Shown here piece after piece: positions 8,871-33,692 of a DNA stretch of 40,702 nucleotides. Every line of letters starts with the position of its first letter. Position 1 is the stretch's first letter. Under the pieces are notes generated by a model. That model was given only the letters and a program-made list of their open reading frames with translations, had not been told where the DNA came from and searched no databases. A program made the position numbers and the translations under genes. Location of the stretch: IMG/VR virus record IMGVR_UViG_3300005563_000060, positions 1-40,702 of that record. The stretch is one strand, 5' to 3'. Source of the DNA: a virus.

Positions 8871-9782
8871 TTACAACTCACCTATTACTTTCTTATGGAT
8901 GGGTTGCAATCTTTCTAGGTCAACTTCGTAGTAATGCTCAAGTGTTGTACGCAAACTTGCATGCCCAGCCATTACCTGTACTTCTTTAGGGTCAACCTTT
9001 GCCCTAAATAATGTAGTAACGAATGTCTTTCTAAATATGTGATGTGATAAATGCTTTCTTAATTTAAGTCTCTTTTTTAGTGACTTTAAACTGCTTTGCG
9101 CTGTTGCGTATGAAAGTCGCTTACCTGTATTAGAAACAAACAACGCAGGGTTTCCGTCCTTTCTTGTCTCAAGGTATTTTTGAATAGCTTTTTCAGCACC
9201 ATAAAAGTAAACCGTTCGCCATTTTCTGGTCTTCTCATTTAAAATTTTAAGAGAACTTTCTTTCCAATTTAGGTCTTGGATATTTACCGCCAATGCCTCT
9301 GACAATCTCACCCCTGTATGCAAAAGAAACTCAAAGAAACATAAGGTGCGAGCATATGATATTTTATTAGCTTCATAACAGCCTTGACCTGCATATTTAC
9401 TAAACTTAGGGGGGTTACTTAAATGACTTCTAATTACAGCGATCTCATCTTTATCAAGAGCCTCCACTGGCTTAACTCTAAAATACTGCGCGCCTTTCAT
9501 TTCATCTAGGTGAAACGTGCTTCTATATCCGCAGTCTCTAGCATACGCCAGAAGGCACCTAAGGCTCACCATAGAACGCTGTGGGACACTTGCACCCATT
9601 GGGGTAGCTTTCTCTAATACCAGACTTCTATGGATGGGTAAAAGGTCCTTAATATCAAAGTCCCCTAATACAGGTAAAACAACCCTTGTAAGGAGGTTTC
9701 TATGGGATTCGACTGTGTTAGGTCTAAGCCCTATTCGTATGCAGTTTTGTATAAAGCTTGGGATTAATTCTTTAATTTTCAT
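8871..9782 (-). CDS. int: Tyrosine-family integrase
   Basis: 303 residues from the ATG at 9782 (an in-frame TTG nine bases earlier is less likely). SAM-like N-terminal DNA-binding domain (about 1-95, NTVESHRNLLTRVVLPVLGD). Catalytic domain with all expected residues: Arg159 (HTGVRLSEAL), Lys184, His248 and Arg251 (HHIFRKTF), His274 (MAGHAS) and Tyr284 or 285 (LEHYYEVD). It should recombine the phage attP with a host tRNA-Ala gene. It is followed on the same strand by the HTH-HNH gene and attP. Its presence makes a temperate life cycle likely. Confidence 0.93.
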   Translation of the reverse strand: MKIKELIPSFIQNCIRIGLRPNTVESHRNLLTRVVLPVLGDFDIKDLLPIHRSLVLEKATPMGASVPQRSMVSLRCLLAYARDCGYRSTFHLDEMKGAQYFRVKPVEALDKDEIAVIRSHLSNPPKFSKYAGQGCYEANKISYARTLCFFEFLLHTGVRLSEALAVNIQDLNWKESSLKILNEKTRKWRTVYFYGAEKAIQKYLETRKDGNPALFVSNTGKRLSYATAQSSLKSLKKRLKLRKHLSHHIFRKTFVTTLFRAKVDPKEVQVMAGHASLRTTLEHYYEVDLERLQPIHKKVIGEL

Positions 9783-9791
9783 GAAAATCAA

Positions 9792-12519: not shown

Positions 12520-12567
12520 GTGGATAATCCTTTACTTTTTATTGGTAAACCCAGTTAGAATGGGAGA

Positions 12568-12632
12568 AGTAACTTGCATTGTGAGTTCCCTAGCTGATGG
12601 TTTCTTGCAAGTTACTCGTTGGCTAGGGAACT
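12568..12632 (-). ncRNA. Interleaved 11-bp inverted repeats (pseudoknot or switch)
   Basis: A = AGTAACTTGCA (12568-12578), B = AGTTCCCTAGC (12584-12594), A' = TGCAAGTTACT (12606-12616), B' = GCTAGGGAACT (12622-12632). A pairs perfectly with A' and B with B', in A-B-A'-B' order. Nine bases of B (GAGTTCCCT from 12583) can alternatively pair with AGGGAACTC at 12652-12660. The element fills the 228-bp gap 12520-12747 between the capsid-type/fibre genes and the lysis cassette, and is transcribed with them. No coding frame is convincing in the gap. Confidence 0.65.
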
Positions 12633-28302: not shown

Positions 28303-28563
28303 CTATTTTTTATTAATCCAATAAAACTGATAAATCCAATTCTTTTTGTCGTAATATCCTATTTTTATCCACCATCTATAGTTTCTCCACCAATATGGGT
28401 AGGATATAGACTTCTCAATAAAGTCTGCCAATCTAATAAGAGGTTTAATAAACCAATACTTTTTGTAGTAGTTAACACCTTCACTAAAACCAGCCTTGCG
28501 TGCATCAATTATTTCACGCAGCAAGCGGTGTCTTTCCTCCTTTGTTAGAAGTTCTTTTTCCAT
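28303..28563 (-). CDS. Small aromatic-rich protein, 86 aa
   Basis: Start chosen at the ATG at 28563 (MEKELLTKEERHRLLREI); an ATG seven codons earlier would deepen the overlap with the 783-residue gene. Remarkably rich in Trp, Tyr and Lys in its C-terminal half (YPYWWRNYRWWIKIGYYDKK). Possibly membrane-peripheral or carbohydrate-binding, in keeping with the glycosyltransferases around it. Function unknown. Confidence 0.5.
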   Translation of the reverse strand: MEKELLTKEERHRLLREIIDARKAGFSEGVNYYKKYWFIKPLIRLADFIEKSISYPYWWRNYRWWIKIGYYDKKNWIYQFYWINKK

Positions 28564-30896
28564 TGTTCTGCAATTAGTGGCCATGCAAACTTCTTAGTCC
28601 ATGACTTCATTTTCTTTTCCTCTTTCATAGGAGTTTTAAGTTCCTTGACTACAGCTTCAACCCATTCATCTTGAGCCTTAGGATCATCAAGACCGAATGA
28701 GAACTGATAGGGCTTTGACCAGTTTTCAGTATTTTTATTTGAGTGAACCTTTACACCGTACTGCACTGATTCATCAAAGGCGGCAAAGTCCGTAGTAATT
28801 GGTTTACAACCGCAAGCCTGTGCCTTTTTAACCGAGATACAGTCAATCTCGTAGAACTCTGATGGATAAGCTAAGATTCTTCCCTCTAAATACAACTTGG
28901 CACATTCTGCCTGTGATAGTCTTCCCATGTTCTCAATTCCAACCTCTTCCATTTCCTTTAGACATTTATCTTTCCATTCCATCATTGTCTTGTTCTCTTT
29001 GTGGGCGTTGTCAAAGATATCGAAACCATAGGCCCATTTAAGTCGCGCTTCTGGTACTTGCTCCTTTACTCTTTTAAAGAGCTTAGGCAATACGTCCATT
29101 GATCGCTCTGGTGAAGAAGTATTTACAAGAAGATACGGGTCTTTCTTAACTTTCTGACTGAACAAATCAAAGTCCTGTCCATTAGGGATAATGGCAAACT
29201 TCTCATCTGGGATATTTGGGAACAATACTCTGTGAGCTTTTGTCTTAACGAATATCTTTTTGATTTTCTTTAGGCGCTTCTCAGTAAACTCACCCTCTGG
29301 AATAACATCGTGGAGATCAACATAAATATTATCCGTATTCATATCTACGTCTGCGTATCTAGGAGTTCTCCAAAAGATAATATGGTCGAACTTATCCTTT
29401 GCGTTAAAGTGCCAAAACGGCTTATATTCAACCCCATCACAAGTCATCGGAACTGGACCGCAAGTGTTATATACGGTTACGTTATAGCCCATATCCTTCC
29501 ATTGCTTAGCAAGGTTAATCACAGCCTCTTCAGAACCTCCAATACCTTTTGTTTTTGCCATCTCTGGATTCCACTCGTGAGATGTTTGACCACAATAATA
29601 TGCGATGTCCTTACCAGAGCTTTCTTCTTTGATGACGAATAGATTTTTAATCTTACAAATCATAGGGTGAGACTGTAAGTCATGGTCGAGTTTATTTATC
29701 TCAAACAAAACCTTTTCCTTATCATCACCATATCCTTTAATCCTTTCGCAAGCTTCAAGTACCTTTTCAAGTCTCTTTACCTCTTCTGCCATTCCACTAG
29801 CTAGGGCTTTTAAGTCTTCTCTATTGGGATAGAGCTTTATGCAACCTTTAAGCATTACTAATGCTAAGTCTGGCCTACTCTTATTCAAGTACACCTTTGC
29901 CAAGGCGTGCATTGGCTTATAGTCGTAGTCTCTAGGGTTATATACGATCATCTTGTCCATCTGAGGCTTCATCACAAGACCCCTAAGGAGCATTTCTTCC
30001 GCCTCATCTAACAAGTTGTAATCGAGGTATCTAATACCAAGTTCAATGTAAGCCTCTGGATAGCCCGGGAATAAACCAATAGCCATTTGTAGGTATTCAA
30101 TGGTCTTACTTCTGTTTCCTAAACAGAATTCTGCAGACGAAAGTCGCTGGTATACGATGTACTTCTCGTCCTTTGATTCAGAGGTTTCCAGGAATTTAAG
30201 ATATTCGTCCCGTGCCTCTTTATAGTTTCCTACCTGAAAGTTTGAGTTAGCGAGGTTGAAGTGTGATGTTGGATCATTACCTCTATCAATTACATCAAGC
30301 TTTGAAATTTCAAGGTTTCTTATAGCACTTTCTGCATTGTGCTTCTCGTCGGCTGTGTGGATTCGTTCTATTGAATCAATAAACTTAACACTTACGGCAC
30401 GATTCTCCTTTAAGTCTTCATGAATTCTATTGACCCATGTCATGCAACCATCGTTCTTAATTACCTGAGTTTTCTTATGGACTACAACAGGATTCATTTC
30501 ATCATCAAAAGCATAGAGATAGTTAAAACCAAATGCGTCAACAGTAGGATTTGCTTCGATAATAGGTTTCAAATCTTCAAGTCCTCTGAAAATGTCGTCA
30601 GCATCACACCAAAGAATATAGTCGTAGTCTTTAGGAACTTGTGAGAAGTTAAAGTTTCTAGCTTTAGAAAAGTCATTTACCCATTTGAAACCACTAATAA
30701 ATGCTCCATATTTATTAATGGCAATATTAGCTACTTTTTGGTTTATATGTCTATCTGATTCATTGCTTGTCACTGTTACGTATATAGCATCAACATAAGG
30801 CCTCACACTTTCTAAGCATTGGTCAAGTAAAACAGCTTCTTCGTCAGTCCCTTTCACAATTAACGCTAATGCGATTTTTGTATTTTTTTTGTTCAT
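28545..30896 (-). CDS. Large fusion glycosyltransferase: GT2 + TPR + GT4-like
   Basis: 783 residues. Residues about 8-200 are a GT2 domain (KIALALIVKGTDEEAVLLDQ; YDYILWCDADDIF with D-A-D-D). Residues about 205-385 are TPR repeats (SHFNLANSNFQVGNYKEARD; AYIELGIRYLDYNLLDEAEE). Residues about 440-760 are a GT-B domain (KGIGGSEEAVINLAKQWKDM; RILAYPSEFYEIDCISVKKA; QACGCKPITTDFAAFDE). One chain could thus add two sugars, with TPRs scaffolding. First glycosyltransferase after the GroEL gene. Such fusions are known in environmental bacteria; in a phage virion operon this is unusual. Confidence 0.8.
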   Translation of the reverse strand: MNKKNTKIALALIVKGTDEEAVLLDQCLESVRPYVDAIYVTVTSNESDRHINQKVANIAINKYGAFISGFKWVNDFSKARNFNFSQVPKDYDYILWCDADDIFRGLEDLKPIIEANPTVDAFGFNYLYAFDDEMNPVVVHKKTQVIKNDGCMTWVNRIHEDLKENRAVSVKFIDSIERIHTADEKHNAESAIRNLEISKLDVIDRGNDPTSHFNLANSNFQVGNYKEARDEYLKFLETSESKDEKYIVYQRLSSAEFCLGNRSKTIEYLQMAIGLFPGYPEAYIELGIRYLDYNLLDEAEEMLLRGLVMKPQMDKMIVYNPRDYDYKPMHALAKVYLNKSRPDLALVMLKGCIKLYPNREDLKALASGMAEEVKRLEKVLEACERIKGYGDDKEKVLFEINKLDHDLQSHPMICKIKNLFVIKEESSGKDIAYYCGQTSHEWNPEMAKTKGIGGSEEAVINLAKQWKDMGYNVTVYNTCGPVPMTCDGVEYKPFWHFNAKDKFDHIIFWRTPRYADVDMNTDNIYVDLHDVIPEGEFTEKRLKKIKKIFVKTKAHRVLFPNIPDEKFAIIPNGQDFDLFSQKVKKDPYLLVNTSSPERSMDVLPKLFKRVKEQVPEARLKWAYGFDIFDNAHKENKTMMEWKDKCLKEMEEVGIENMGRLSQAECAKLYLEGRILAYPSEFYEIDCISVKKAQACGCKPITTDFAAFDESVQYGVKVHSNKNTENWSKPYQFSFGLDDPKAQDEWVEAVVKELKTPMKEEKKMKSWTKKFAWPLIAEQWKKNF

Positions 30897-30901
30897 ATTC
30901 T

Positions 30902-31186
30902 TTAAACTGCCTTGCTGAGACGAAACTGCGGGAATTCATCTGCAAACCATCGAGCATTTTCCTGTTCCTTAAAGGCTGTTCGTTCCTCCATTGATAATTT
31001 AAGTGCGATCATCGCAGATAGTTTTTCAGATACAGTAAATAGTCCTCGCTTTACAGCGTGATTGGTTTTAATGTCGGCCATTTCGTTGTCTAACTTCTGC
31101 CTCTGGTCTTCAATGACAATCATCAAGTCTTTATATTCCTCTGGGTACATTTCTTGATAGTCTTTGACTGCCATTCGTACCTTCAT
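30902..31186 (-). CDS. Hypothetical protein after GroEL, 94 aa
   Basis: Start chosen at the ATG at 31186, one base after the GroEL stop; the frame is open further back to a TTG inside groEL. Begins MKVRMAVKDYQEMYPEEYKD; helical and charged, without the beta barrel or mobile loop of GroES. It has GroES-like size and position but not its sequence, so it should not be called GroES. May be a GroEL partner or capsid-assembly factor by position only. Confidence 0.55.
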   Translation of the reverse strand: MKVRMAVKDYQEMYPEEYKDLMIVIEDQRQKLDNEMADIKTNHAVKRGLFTVSEKLSAMIALKLSMEERTAFKEQENARWFADEFPQFRLSKAV

Positions 31187-31187
31187 C

Positions 31188-32687
31188 TTAGTCTTGGGGT
31201 TCACGTGGTTTTTCTTTTTTAAAGGCAATAGCGACCTCTGTTGTTAATACCGTTCCAGCAATTGAGCAGGCTGTTTTAAGAGAACTGATGGCTGTTTCAA
31301 GTGGATCAATTACACTTTCTCCAACTTTGAGTATTCCCCCAGCATTCTCCTTAAGTTGCTTGTACGGGGCTTGTATGGCCTGTGAGAGTACGTTCTGAGG
31401 CAACTTCTCTGAGATTTCTTTGAGTGTCATTCCTCCACCTTTAACAACTCCATCTCGCATTGCGTTCTGAGCGGCGTTAACGGCATTTTCCATTTTTAAT
31501 TTAAAGTAAGACCGTTCAAATTCTGACTCTGCACCTACGGTAATGACAGCAGAACCACCTGAGAGTGACGCGATTCTCTTTTCCAATGCGTCCTTGTCAT
31601 AGATAGATTGTGAGGCCTTGTATTGCTTCTTTAAGTCTGCCACTCGTTTCTTAGTGTCTCCCTTTCCACCAATGAGCATTGTCTTAGAAGGACCGATTAC
31701 AGCTCGTTCAATTCGTGCCATGTTCTTGAAACCTACTTCTCCAATGAATGAATCAACATTAGTGAGAACATTCTTATCAATGAACTTTGCCTTAGTGAAT
31801 ATTGCAATGTCCAGGAAGTGATCGTCCTTCCCAAGATATGGAAGTTTAAGTGCAACGATAGGGAACTTCGTATCAAGCATTGTCTTTGCGAGGCGAGCCA
31901 ATAGATCACGCGAGAAGTCAGGTGCGACAAGGATAATGCCTGTTAAGTTTTTCTTAACTTCTTCGTCCTTCATACCTTCAATGATGTTTGCAACTGTATT
32001 AATCTCCAATAGATTGTTTGTCACCAATACATATGGGTTTTCAATAACACATTCGTCATTGTCGTTATTGATGTAGTAGTCAGAGTGAAACCCTGCTTTA
32101 AGTTCAAGACCAGTAGAAACCTTATAAGAAGTTTCCTTACCTTCTTGGATATCAACGTAGCCGTCCTTACCAATGTTTTCATAAACATCAGCCACGATCT
32201 TAGCGATCCAAGAATATTCACCTGCGCCAAGTGCTACGTTATAGATTTCATTACTCTTAATAGGTCTGGCTCTCTTCTGCAATTCTTTGACGATAAGGTC
32301 ACATGCTTCATCAACTGCCCGTTTCAACTGGATTACATTAGGCTTTTTAGAAACCAACGAACCGTCATCTTTGATTTGCTCGAAAAGGTCATTTACTATC
32401 GCTTGGAGAAGTACTGTTGTTGTAGTAGTACCGTCTCCTGCTTTCTTTGAGGCTAGTGATGCGGCTTCCTTAACCATCATCACTCCCAACTGTTCAATCT
32501 CATCTTCTGATTCAACATTCAATGCTATCGAAACACCGTCATTCGTCACTGTAGGGGGGATATCAAGCTTTCCAAGTACTGCATTTCTTCCTGCTGGACC
32601 AAGTGTCACTTTCACACAATCCGCTACAAGGTCAATTCCTTTCTTGATTCCGTCCCGAGCTTCCTGACCAAGTTTTATTATCTTCAT
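31188..32687 (-). CDS. groEL: Phage-encoded chaperonin GroEL-like (Cpn60)
   Basis: 499 residues (cellular GroEL is about 540). Group I chaperonin motifs: VTLGPAGRNAVLG (27-39), TNDGVSI (48-54), the ATP-site GDGTTTTTVL (84-93) and the C-terminal VIDPLETAISSLKTACSIAG. The GGM tail is missing; it ends KKEKPREPQD. Apical-domain residues are divergent, so it may use a different co-chaperonin or none. Placed between the capsid gene and glycosyltransferases in a late operon, suggesting it folds virion proteins. GAGGA lies seven bases before the ATG and can be buried in a hairpin (32693-32738). Confidence 0.92.
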   Translation of the reverse strand: MKIIKLGQEARDGIKKGIDLVADCVKVTLGPAGRNAVLGKLDIPPTVTNDGVSIALNVESEDEIEQLGVMMVKEAASLASKKAGDGTTTTTVLLQAIVNDLFEQIKDDGSLVSKKPNVIQLKRAVDEACDLIVKELQKRARPIKSNEIYNVALGAGEYSWIAKIVADVYENIGKDGYVDIQEGKETSYKVSTGLELKAGFHSDYYINNDNDECVIENPYVLVTNNLLEINTVANIIEGMKDEEVKKNLTGIILVAPDFSRDLLARLAKTMLDTKFPIVALKLPYLGKDDHFLDIAIFTKAKFIDKNVLTNVDSFIGEVGFKNMARIERAVIGPSKTMLIGGKGDTKKRVADLKKQYKASQSIYDKDALEKRIASLSGGSAVITVGAESEFERSYFKLKMENAVNAAQNAMRDGVVKGGGMTLKEISEKLPQNVLSQAIQAPYKQLKENAGGILKVGESVIDPLETAISSLKTACSIAGTVLTTEVAIAFKKEKPREPQD

Positions 32688-32692
32688 TTAGT

Positions 32693-32738
32693 TCCTCAAT
32701 TGGCTGATGCATCTCTTTGAGGAGCGACCATCAGCCAA
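32693..32738 (-). promoter_or_regulatory. Competing helices that can bury the groEL Shine-Dalgarno
   Basis: Helix 1: TTGGCTGATG/CATCAGCCAA, 10 perfect pairs (32700-32709 with 32729-32738). Helix 2: TCCTCAA/TTGAGGA, 7 pairs (32717-32723 with 32693-32699, on the minus strand). The 3' arm of helix 2 holds the GAGGA ribosome-binding site of groEL, six bases before the ATG, and its 5' arm is in the loop of helix 1. The two cannot both form fully without loop space, so this looks like an on/off translation switch. It fills the 69-bp gap between capsid and groEL genes. Confidence 0.65.
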
Positions 32739-32756
32739 CCAAATGTTAATTTGTAA

Positions 32757-33692
32757 TTACGCTACCAACTGGTAACCAGATGCATAGAAACATGAATCCT
32801 GGTTTCGGAATTCTGTTGTAAGAGAACCGTAAACCGCCTTCTTGTTGTAAGCACCGTTTTCCGCCAAATCCTTGATGAAAGGCATATCGAGATATGCAAC
32901 TTTGATCTTTTCTGGTCGGATACCGAGAACCTTACCCTGCAAGTTGTTATCTGCTGTAGCAGATGTCTGAACGTATCGATGCTTGTGGATAGTAACTGTA
33001 CCCATAGAAGTTTCGAAAGTTGTAACTGTTCGAACGATTGTAGAAATACCAGGGGCATTTACTACTACGTTTGACTTCTGGACAAAGTTATCTACTACTC
33101 GCTTCATGATACCTCCAACGTAAATGTCAGTTGTGACATCGCCGTTTGAGTTGTTCCAAACGTTATACATGTGAGCATCAAGAATTGTTGCTGAGAAGAT
33201 TGTTCCTGATGTCTGCGCTGTATAGTTTGTAGACTTAGAGATACCGTTCAAGATACCGTTCATAGATGCGACTGTTCCTGAGATACCTGAGGCGAGAGTT
33301 GCTCGTACGAGGTCGAATTCGAGAGCATTACCCCAATCCTTAAGTGCCTTAGTGATCTGTCGATCGAGTTCGTTCACACCTGAGTATGACTGAACTACTT
33401 CTTCTGGTCGTGTGACCAAGAACGCCTTAGCAATTTCCTCAACGATGTTTGTGAGTCGTGTTGGAGTTGTAAGTGTTGAGAGTGAGAAGTCTGCACCCTG
33501 TTCTGTTGCCAATGAACCTGCTGTCAAAAGGGTATCTACAAGGTAGCTGTGCACCATGTTGATAGCCTTAGTTTTGCCGAGAGCCGTCTGGATAGTGTTT
33601 TCTGTTGCTGTAAGGATTTCGATTGAGTTCAATACTACGTCCTCTCGCTTAGAAGAATCTCCATAGGTCTGCAAAGCACCTGCTATTGCCAT
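32757..33692 (-). CDS. Major capsid protein (SU10/DUF5309 type)
   Basis: 311 residues, typical of SU10-like HK97-fold capsids. Begins MAIAGALQTYGDSSKREDVV; TATENTIQTALGKTKAINMV and VVQSYSGVNELDRQITKALK resemble the family's N-arm and spine helix; TSGTIFSATILDAHMYNVWN and GVNELDRQ-like segments complete the P and A domains. Follows the scaffold gene and precedes groEL. No Shine-Dalgarno; hairpin TAACG-GCGAT-CGTTA sits directly before the start. This is the main shell protein. Confidence 0.8.
   Translation of the reverse strand: MAIAGALQTYGDSSKREDVVLNSIEILTATENTIQTALGKTKAINMVHSYLVDTLLTAGSLATEQGADFSLSTLTTPTRLTNIVEEIAKAFLVTRPEEVVQSYSGVNELDRQITKALKDWGNALEFDLVRATLASGISGTVASMNGILNGISKSTNYTAQTSGTIFSATILDAHMYNVWNNSNGDVTTDIYVGGIMKRVVDNFVQKSNVVVNAPGISTIVRTVTTFETSMGTVTIHKHRYVQTSATADNNLQGKVLGIRPEKIKVAYLDMPFIKDLAENGAYNKKAVYGSLTTEFRNQDSCFYASGYQLVA

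Follow-up and report, generated by a model that had tools for sequence, protein, structure and literature searches.

What lies between the capsid gene and the chaperonin gene of an uncultivated phage, and does it work as a switch? A phage particle needs hundreds of capsid proteins, whereas the head proteins encoded by the neighbouring genes are required in about a dozen copies; classic phages set this ratio with terminators. In T7, the intrinsic terminator T-phi follows gene 10. The DNA analysed here, which we call the window, is a 40,702-base IMG/VR virus record in which the boundary between the major capsid protein (MCP) gene and a groEL-like gene lies on the minus strand, with a gap of 69 nt from the MCP stop codon (32757-32759) to the groEL ATG (32685-32687). 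A first-pass annotation, made from the sequence, described two competing helices in this gap and proposed a translation switch, perhaps temperature-sensitive, that hides the groEL Shine-Dalgarno (SD); it suggested folding across temperatures and looking for compensatory changes in related phages. Are the two helices rival states of one switch? Or are they parts of a single structure with another role at the end of the capsid gene?

A check of the sequence bore out both helices and the length of the gap. On the minus strand, the perfect 10-bp stem joins TTGGCTGATG (32738-32729) to CATCAGCCAA (32709-32700), and TCCTCAA (32723-32717), the 'anti-SD' within the loop of this stem, is complementary to TTGAGGA (32699-32693), which is indeed the groEL SD. 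A third helix had been overlooked: CATTTGGT (32745-32738) pairs with ACTAAATG (32692-32685), enclosing the other two and pairing the groEL AUG. The same outer helix is present in the minimum free energy (MFE) fold as CAUUUGGU (32745-32738) with ACUAAAUG (32692-32685), the groEL AUG included. The 7-bp pairing connects the loop of the 10-bp hairpin with its 3' flank, giving the topology of an a-b-c-b'-c'-a' pseudoknot, for which we use the labels P1 (outer helix), P2 (main hairpin) and S2 (pseudoknot helix) of Table 1.

Table 1. Genes and parts of the pseudoknot element at the capsid-groEL boundary of the window.
Feature	Position	Strand	Basis
MCP gene, SU10-type	32757..33692	(-)	Pfam PF17236, E 3.5e-42; PHROG major head protein
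P1a, outer helix 5' arm (CATTTGGT)	32738..32745	(-)	pairs with 32685-32692; MFE fold, motif scan; P1 covaries in relatives
P2a, main hairpin 5' arm (TGGCTGATG; the 10-bp stem of the first-pass annotation also takes in 32738)	32729..32737	(-)	pairing, folding
L1 loop (GTCGC)	32724..32728	(-)	
S2a, pseudoknot strand in hairpin loop (TCCTCAA, the 'anti-SD')	32717..32723	(-)	pairing to 32693-32699; covariation of S2 in 24 relatives, 9/9 pairs changed on both sides
L2 loop (AGAGATG)	32710..32716	(-)	
P2b, main hairpin 3' arm (CATCAGCCA)	32701..32709	(-)	pairing, folding
S2b, pseudoknot strand 3' of hairpin (TTGAGGA), doubles as groEL SD	32693..32699	(-)	compensatory double change against relative L058 (TTCTGGA)
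P1b, outer helix 3' arm (ACTAAATG), holds groEL start codon	32685..32692	(-)	MFE fold
groEL-like chaperonin gene, downstream of element	31188..32687	(-)	Pfam PF00118, E 1.4e-25; PHROG chaperonin groEL, E 1.5e-85
108-aa gene 3' of groEL	30902..31228	(-)	resemblance of translations to relatives; no match in Pfam or PHROG

Elsewhere in the window, a tyrosine-type phage integrase gene is present at 8871-9791, and the phage is therefore probably temperate. Downstream of the head genes, 28545-30896 encodes a 783-aa protein with an N-terminal glycosyltransferase-2-like match, a TPR match and a C-terminal glycosyltransferase-1-like match.

The 98-nt fold is moderately unusual (z = -2.3), with 6 of 200 shuffled sequences equally stable, and the 7-bp pairing by itself stands out little, being equalled in 7% of shuffled loops. 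The full three-helix motif is a different matter. Its thresholds were reached in the window's gap by 16 of 12,000 shuffles and none of the 12,000 was as strong, and the window's motif is not a product of chance. Because the 7-bp complementarity is not striking alone, the comparison of relatives had to decide. When GroEL was used as the query against viral contigs no relatives were found; with the MCP as query there were many, from which 84 distinct post-MCP gaps were analysed.

Most of these gaps share one layout while differing in letters, with strands a, b and the loop strand c followed by b', c' and a', almost free of spacers. The element is about 50-72 nt long, typically 60, with a P2 of about 9 bp, an S2 of 7-9 bp and a P1 of 6-10 bp. 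At strict thresholds the full motif was found in 51 of the 84 gaps, as against 1 of 840 dinucleotide shuffles, a control run with the first version of the scanner, which scored 50 gaps rather than 51. When the hairpin loop of one locus was set against the flank of another, 7% of pairs reached the S2 strength common to all true pairs. Eight elements that align without gaps are paired in 96.5% of cells, a percentage that is inflated because the elements were first chosen by complementarity; 20 of their 25 pairs have changed on both sides, and the covariation score is 0.904, compared with 0.265 after shuffling and at most 0.22 with slid partners. In the larger set of 24 elements, changes on both sides are seen in 24 of 25 pairs, all nine pseudoknot pairs among them, and the score is 0.678 against 0.218 shuffled. 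These alignments, too, include elements picked by complementarity, a bias that the shuffle and flank-swap controls address. Covariation thus exceeds the shuffled and slid controls in all helices, as is expected of a conserved RNA. In the pseudoknot helix, the window has TCCTCAA/TTGAGGA where its relative L058, also with groEL next, has TCCAGAA/TTCTGGA, a compensatory double change; the SD-like GAGGA of the window therefore arose within a covarying helix. By comparison of sequences we thus show a conserved RNA after the MCP gene, with three covarying helices in a pseudoknot layout.

The element also has an orientation. The forward (MCP-sense) fold is the more stable one in 40 of 50 cases (p 2e-6), and the motif scan found it in 51 gaps forward and 21 in reverse. 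By symmetry, the reverse complement of the element in the window (32684-32744, plus strand) retains the knot topology; in relatives, stability favours the sense strand. A covariance model built on P1 and P2 only (CM R1) gave 43 matches in 639 kb. Every one is on the sense (+) strand, and all are 3' of an MCP gene except one weak match in the window (12533-12571). The window's own element, found by the motif scan, is missed by this model because its loops differ. Whole records of 20 phages were also searched with a covariance model: 13 have a single confident match each and seven fall below the threshold, though some of these carry the motif by scan. One further weak match (E 0.3) was seen in G003.

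Can the three helices exist at the same time? In a coarse rigid-helix model, three full helices nearly coexist with the observed loops, with a best residual of 3.9 as compared with 138 without loops; sampling in this model was limited and not converged, and other starts with the same geometry reached only 27. For this reason the coexistence of all three helices is taken as likely, not proven. Once the whole knot forms, it is plausible that the SD (in S2) and the AUG (in P1) of the window are sequestered.

The gene that follows the element varies and may be groEL, an HNH-type endonuclease, a gene of about 100 aa, or others. The 108-aa gene of the window, which has no match in Pfam or PHROG, has by resemblance of translations an apparent counterpart (~100 aa, ...FPEEY...) that adjoins the element in many relatives lacking groEL at this place. 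Of 47 genomes, 30 have the P1 end at -4 to +3 nt relative to the next ATG; in the other 17 this ATG is 6-109 nt away, and occlusion of the start site therefore cannot be universal. An SD-like tetramer precedes just 17% of the long ORFs in these phage loci, which makes an SD-based function unlikely to be general. Nor is the element strictly tied to the MCP stop codon, since in L087 (4693-4754) and L030 (4712-4767) an HNH-type gene separates it from the MCP gene; the element still precedes the next gene. Between the MCP gene and the next gene of L029 (3943-4446) and L116 (3960-4580), two differing copies of the pseudoknot lie on either side of an inserted HNH-type endonuclease gene. In the post-MCP gap of L017 two hairpins stand where the knot would be, and a 7-nt complementarity between their loops (TAACGGA/TCCGTTA) could make this a kissing-loop variant. 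The three gaps examined from more distant MCP relatives in INPHARED contain no pseudoknot of this kind, and L133 has a terminator-like hairpin. A search for hosts, in which GTDB genomes were scanned with two MCP alignments, gave no match.

What occupies this position when the knot does not? On an MCP tree of 77 rows, sorted into three classes from the scan and by eye, the pseudoknot is present in about 57, spread over the entire tree, and a terminator (a GC hairpin with a U-run) stands in its place in 11. Eight changes are needed to explain this distribution, of which at least seven are forced by supported branches. Exchange is seen between sisters (knot in L100, terminator in L107) and, in L002, within the window's own clade. 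The element of the window is not itself an intrinsic terminator: its hairpin is followed by TTGAGGAACTAAATG and not by a U run, and none of the relatives' elements compared has a U run 3' of it. In the relatives with terminators, a promoter-like site usually precedes the next ATG (p <=0.03 in 7 of 11, median 0.01), whereas those with knots have no consistent promoter upstream of the element (median p 0.42) and usually too little room for one before the next gene. Good candidate promoters upstream of the element do occur in L001, L004, L008 and L116; the one in L116, about 30 nt past the MCP stop codon and just upstream of the element, is near-consensus and sigma-70-like (TTGACA-17-TATACT), with similar candidates in L001 and L004. 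The post-MCP gaps of L002, L051, L063, L083 and L006 contain a composite of terminator and promoter: a -35-like hexamer lies inside the terminator loop or close to it, and a -10-like hexamer lies between the U-tract and the next ATG, directly before the latter. Phage Mu has a predicted terminator in the same place, between the MCP and head-tail connector genes. Replacement by terminators establishes a common position and does not by itself prove equivalence of function.

On balance we lean towards a reading in which the element is an RNA boundary that lowers expression from the capsid gene to the genes that follow, and does so post-transcriptionally. The pseudoknot would be transcribed along with the capsid gene and fold, acting in cis, directly past its stop codon; the loop strand of P2 would pair as S2 with the bases directly 3' of the hairpin, and P1 would close the knot. 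In genomes with a knot, the MCP gene and the next gene would share one transcript from which the capsid cistron outproduces the genes behind it. The knot may hide the next start region, as in the window, where SD and AUG would both lie inside it, and/or it may block exonucleases or ribosomes. The relatives with terminators would achieve an equal step-down by ending transcription and starting it anew. Going further, and only tentatively, we propose that these elements could be a new RNA family found 3' of capsid genes, nearly free in sequence and fixed in geometry (a P2 of about 9 bp, a 9-bp S2 and near-zero junctions), that would serve a large uncultivated phage group as a mechanical block in place of terminators and set the ratio of capsid to head-completion protein post-transcriptionally.

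It is unlikely, if worth weighing, that the knot is purely an mRNA-stability element, stopping 3'-to-5' or 5'-to-3' exonucleases and so defining the end of a stable capsid message. Its position directly past the capsid cistron would suit this role, as would its exchange with terminators, which likewise leave a protective 3' hairpin, and viral exonuclease-resistant RNAs are pseudoknots too (PMC10520033). That the element so often adjoins the following start codon (30/47) is something that stability would not predict, except through compaction.

We think it quite unlikely that the knot is an operator, bound by the capsid protein or by another phage or host protein that would thereby regulate its own message or the gene that follows. 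The coat protein of RNA phages binds RNA to control messages, and here the element keeps near the capsid gene and has near-constant positions amid variable pairs, namely two U-A pairs in P1 (22-23 of 24) and UUNUA/GUU-like loops. These constant letters may, however, reflect inheritance, and an operator does not predict replacement by terminators.

The two-state or temperature-sensitive switch of the first-pass annotation, which would close or open the groEL ribosome-binding site by alternating between the 7-bp SD stem and the 10-bp stem, is very improbable. The annotation was right that a functional RNA lies at this site, both of its helices are kept by compensatory change in relatives, and the complementarity to the SD is genuine; nested alternatives are also no more than 3 kcal/mol apart in 18 of 50 relatives. 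In the other 32, however, they differ by at least 3 kcal/mol. Folding without knots at 10-70 C, with four window sizes, populated the 10-bp stem (probability about 0.90-0.97), but the 7-bp SD stem never exceeded 0.0012 (<0.2%) at any temperature. Taken as a nested alternative, this stem trails by 7.8 kcal/mol in the window, and its equivalent by a median of 5 kcal/mol in 50 relatives. The 7-bp pairing is not merely a rival of the 10-bp stem; it forms a pseudoknot helix, with covariation across about 50 relatives, whose constant lengths and near-zero junctions fit a coexisting knot. An RNA thermometer, with an SD-closing helix that dominates when cold and melts near physiological temperature, was considered and rejected, as no such behaviour appeared in the knot-free folds at 10-50 C or up to 70 C. 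A kinetic switch may exist. Hiding an SD does not hold as a general function either, because in most relatives S2b is not an SD, and the tie to groEL fails because the element is also present where the next gene is another. Sequestration of the SD is not kept even in relatives that keep groEL: S2b in L058, L004, L016 and L108 is TTCTGGA, GATCTTGAG, GGTTTGAC and GGTTTGAA, respectively, unlike the SD type of the window, and L058, L016 and L108 have no SD in S2b.

A feature of the DNA or of a mobile element, such as a cruciform or a repeat associated with homing endonucleases, is disfavoured as the least credible reading: HNH-type genes adjoin the element and two copies flank one in L029 and L116, but stability is biased to the sense strand, GU pairs are tolerated (82/1,290, a weak point alone since GU was allowed in the search), most relatives carry the element without HNH, and the paired copies differ in sequence.

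How does the element compare with known RNAs? Rfam 15 gave no match at the gathering cut-off in the window and 18 relatives, and a permissive search with two elements gave matches at chance level only. Mu-gpT-DE (RF03012) is a short conserved RNA directly 3' of the major head gene of Mu-like phages; it resembles the element in this place and in size (53 positions, compared with about 58 here). It differs in belonging to another phage lineage, and its model reached at best 13.1 bits on 10 of these phages, under the cut-off of 49; phage Mu itself gave no match at the cut-off either. Post-capsid terminators (T-phi of T7, and the predicted one after gene T of Mu) have the same place in the head operon and replace the element in the 11 relatives, whereas the element lacks a U-tract, is pseudoknotted and adjoins the following start codon, with no promoter. 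The preQ1-I and SAM-II riboswitches and S15 autoregulation use pseudoknots that sequester ribosome-binding sites. The element shares with them the pairing of a loop to the 3' flank, which in the window contains the SD, but it has no conserved ligand pocket or Rfam match, has an extra enclosing helix and 0-nt junctions, and mostly lacks an SD. Viral exonuclease-resistant RNAs of flaviviruses and dianthoviruses are compact knots, made when the loop of a hairpin pairs with a strand further downstream (PMC10520033). The element is similar in this pairing; it comes from bacterial DNA viruses and has no three-way junction. The L17 downstream element is a bacterial structured RNA 3' of a gene, and STAXI is a bacterial pseudoknot found in tandem (PMC2864571); these belong to other genes and have other structures, and neither was matched through Rfam in the 18 relatives scanned. 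We did not find the element described in the literature searched, a search that most subscription journals lie outside.

Across a diverse group of uncultivated phages, then, a knotted RNA without a U-tract holds the place of a terminator and has been exchanged with one at least seven times on the tree. This is a natural comparative experiment, with RNA structure in lieu of transcription control. It also carries a warning, in that a match between SD and anti-SD in a single genome can be the by-product of a covarying helix. For these phages the element is a compact and sequence-tolerant part, one that may stop ribosomes or nucleases at the end of the capsid gene.
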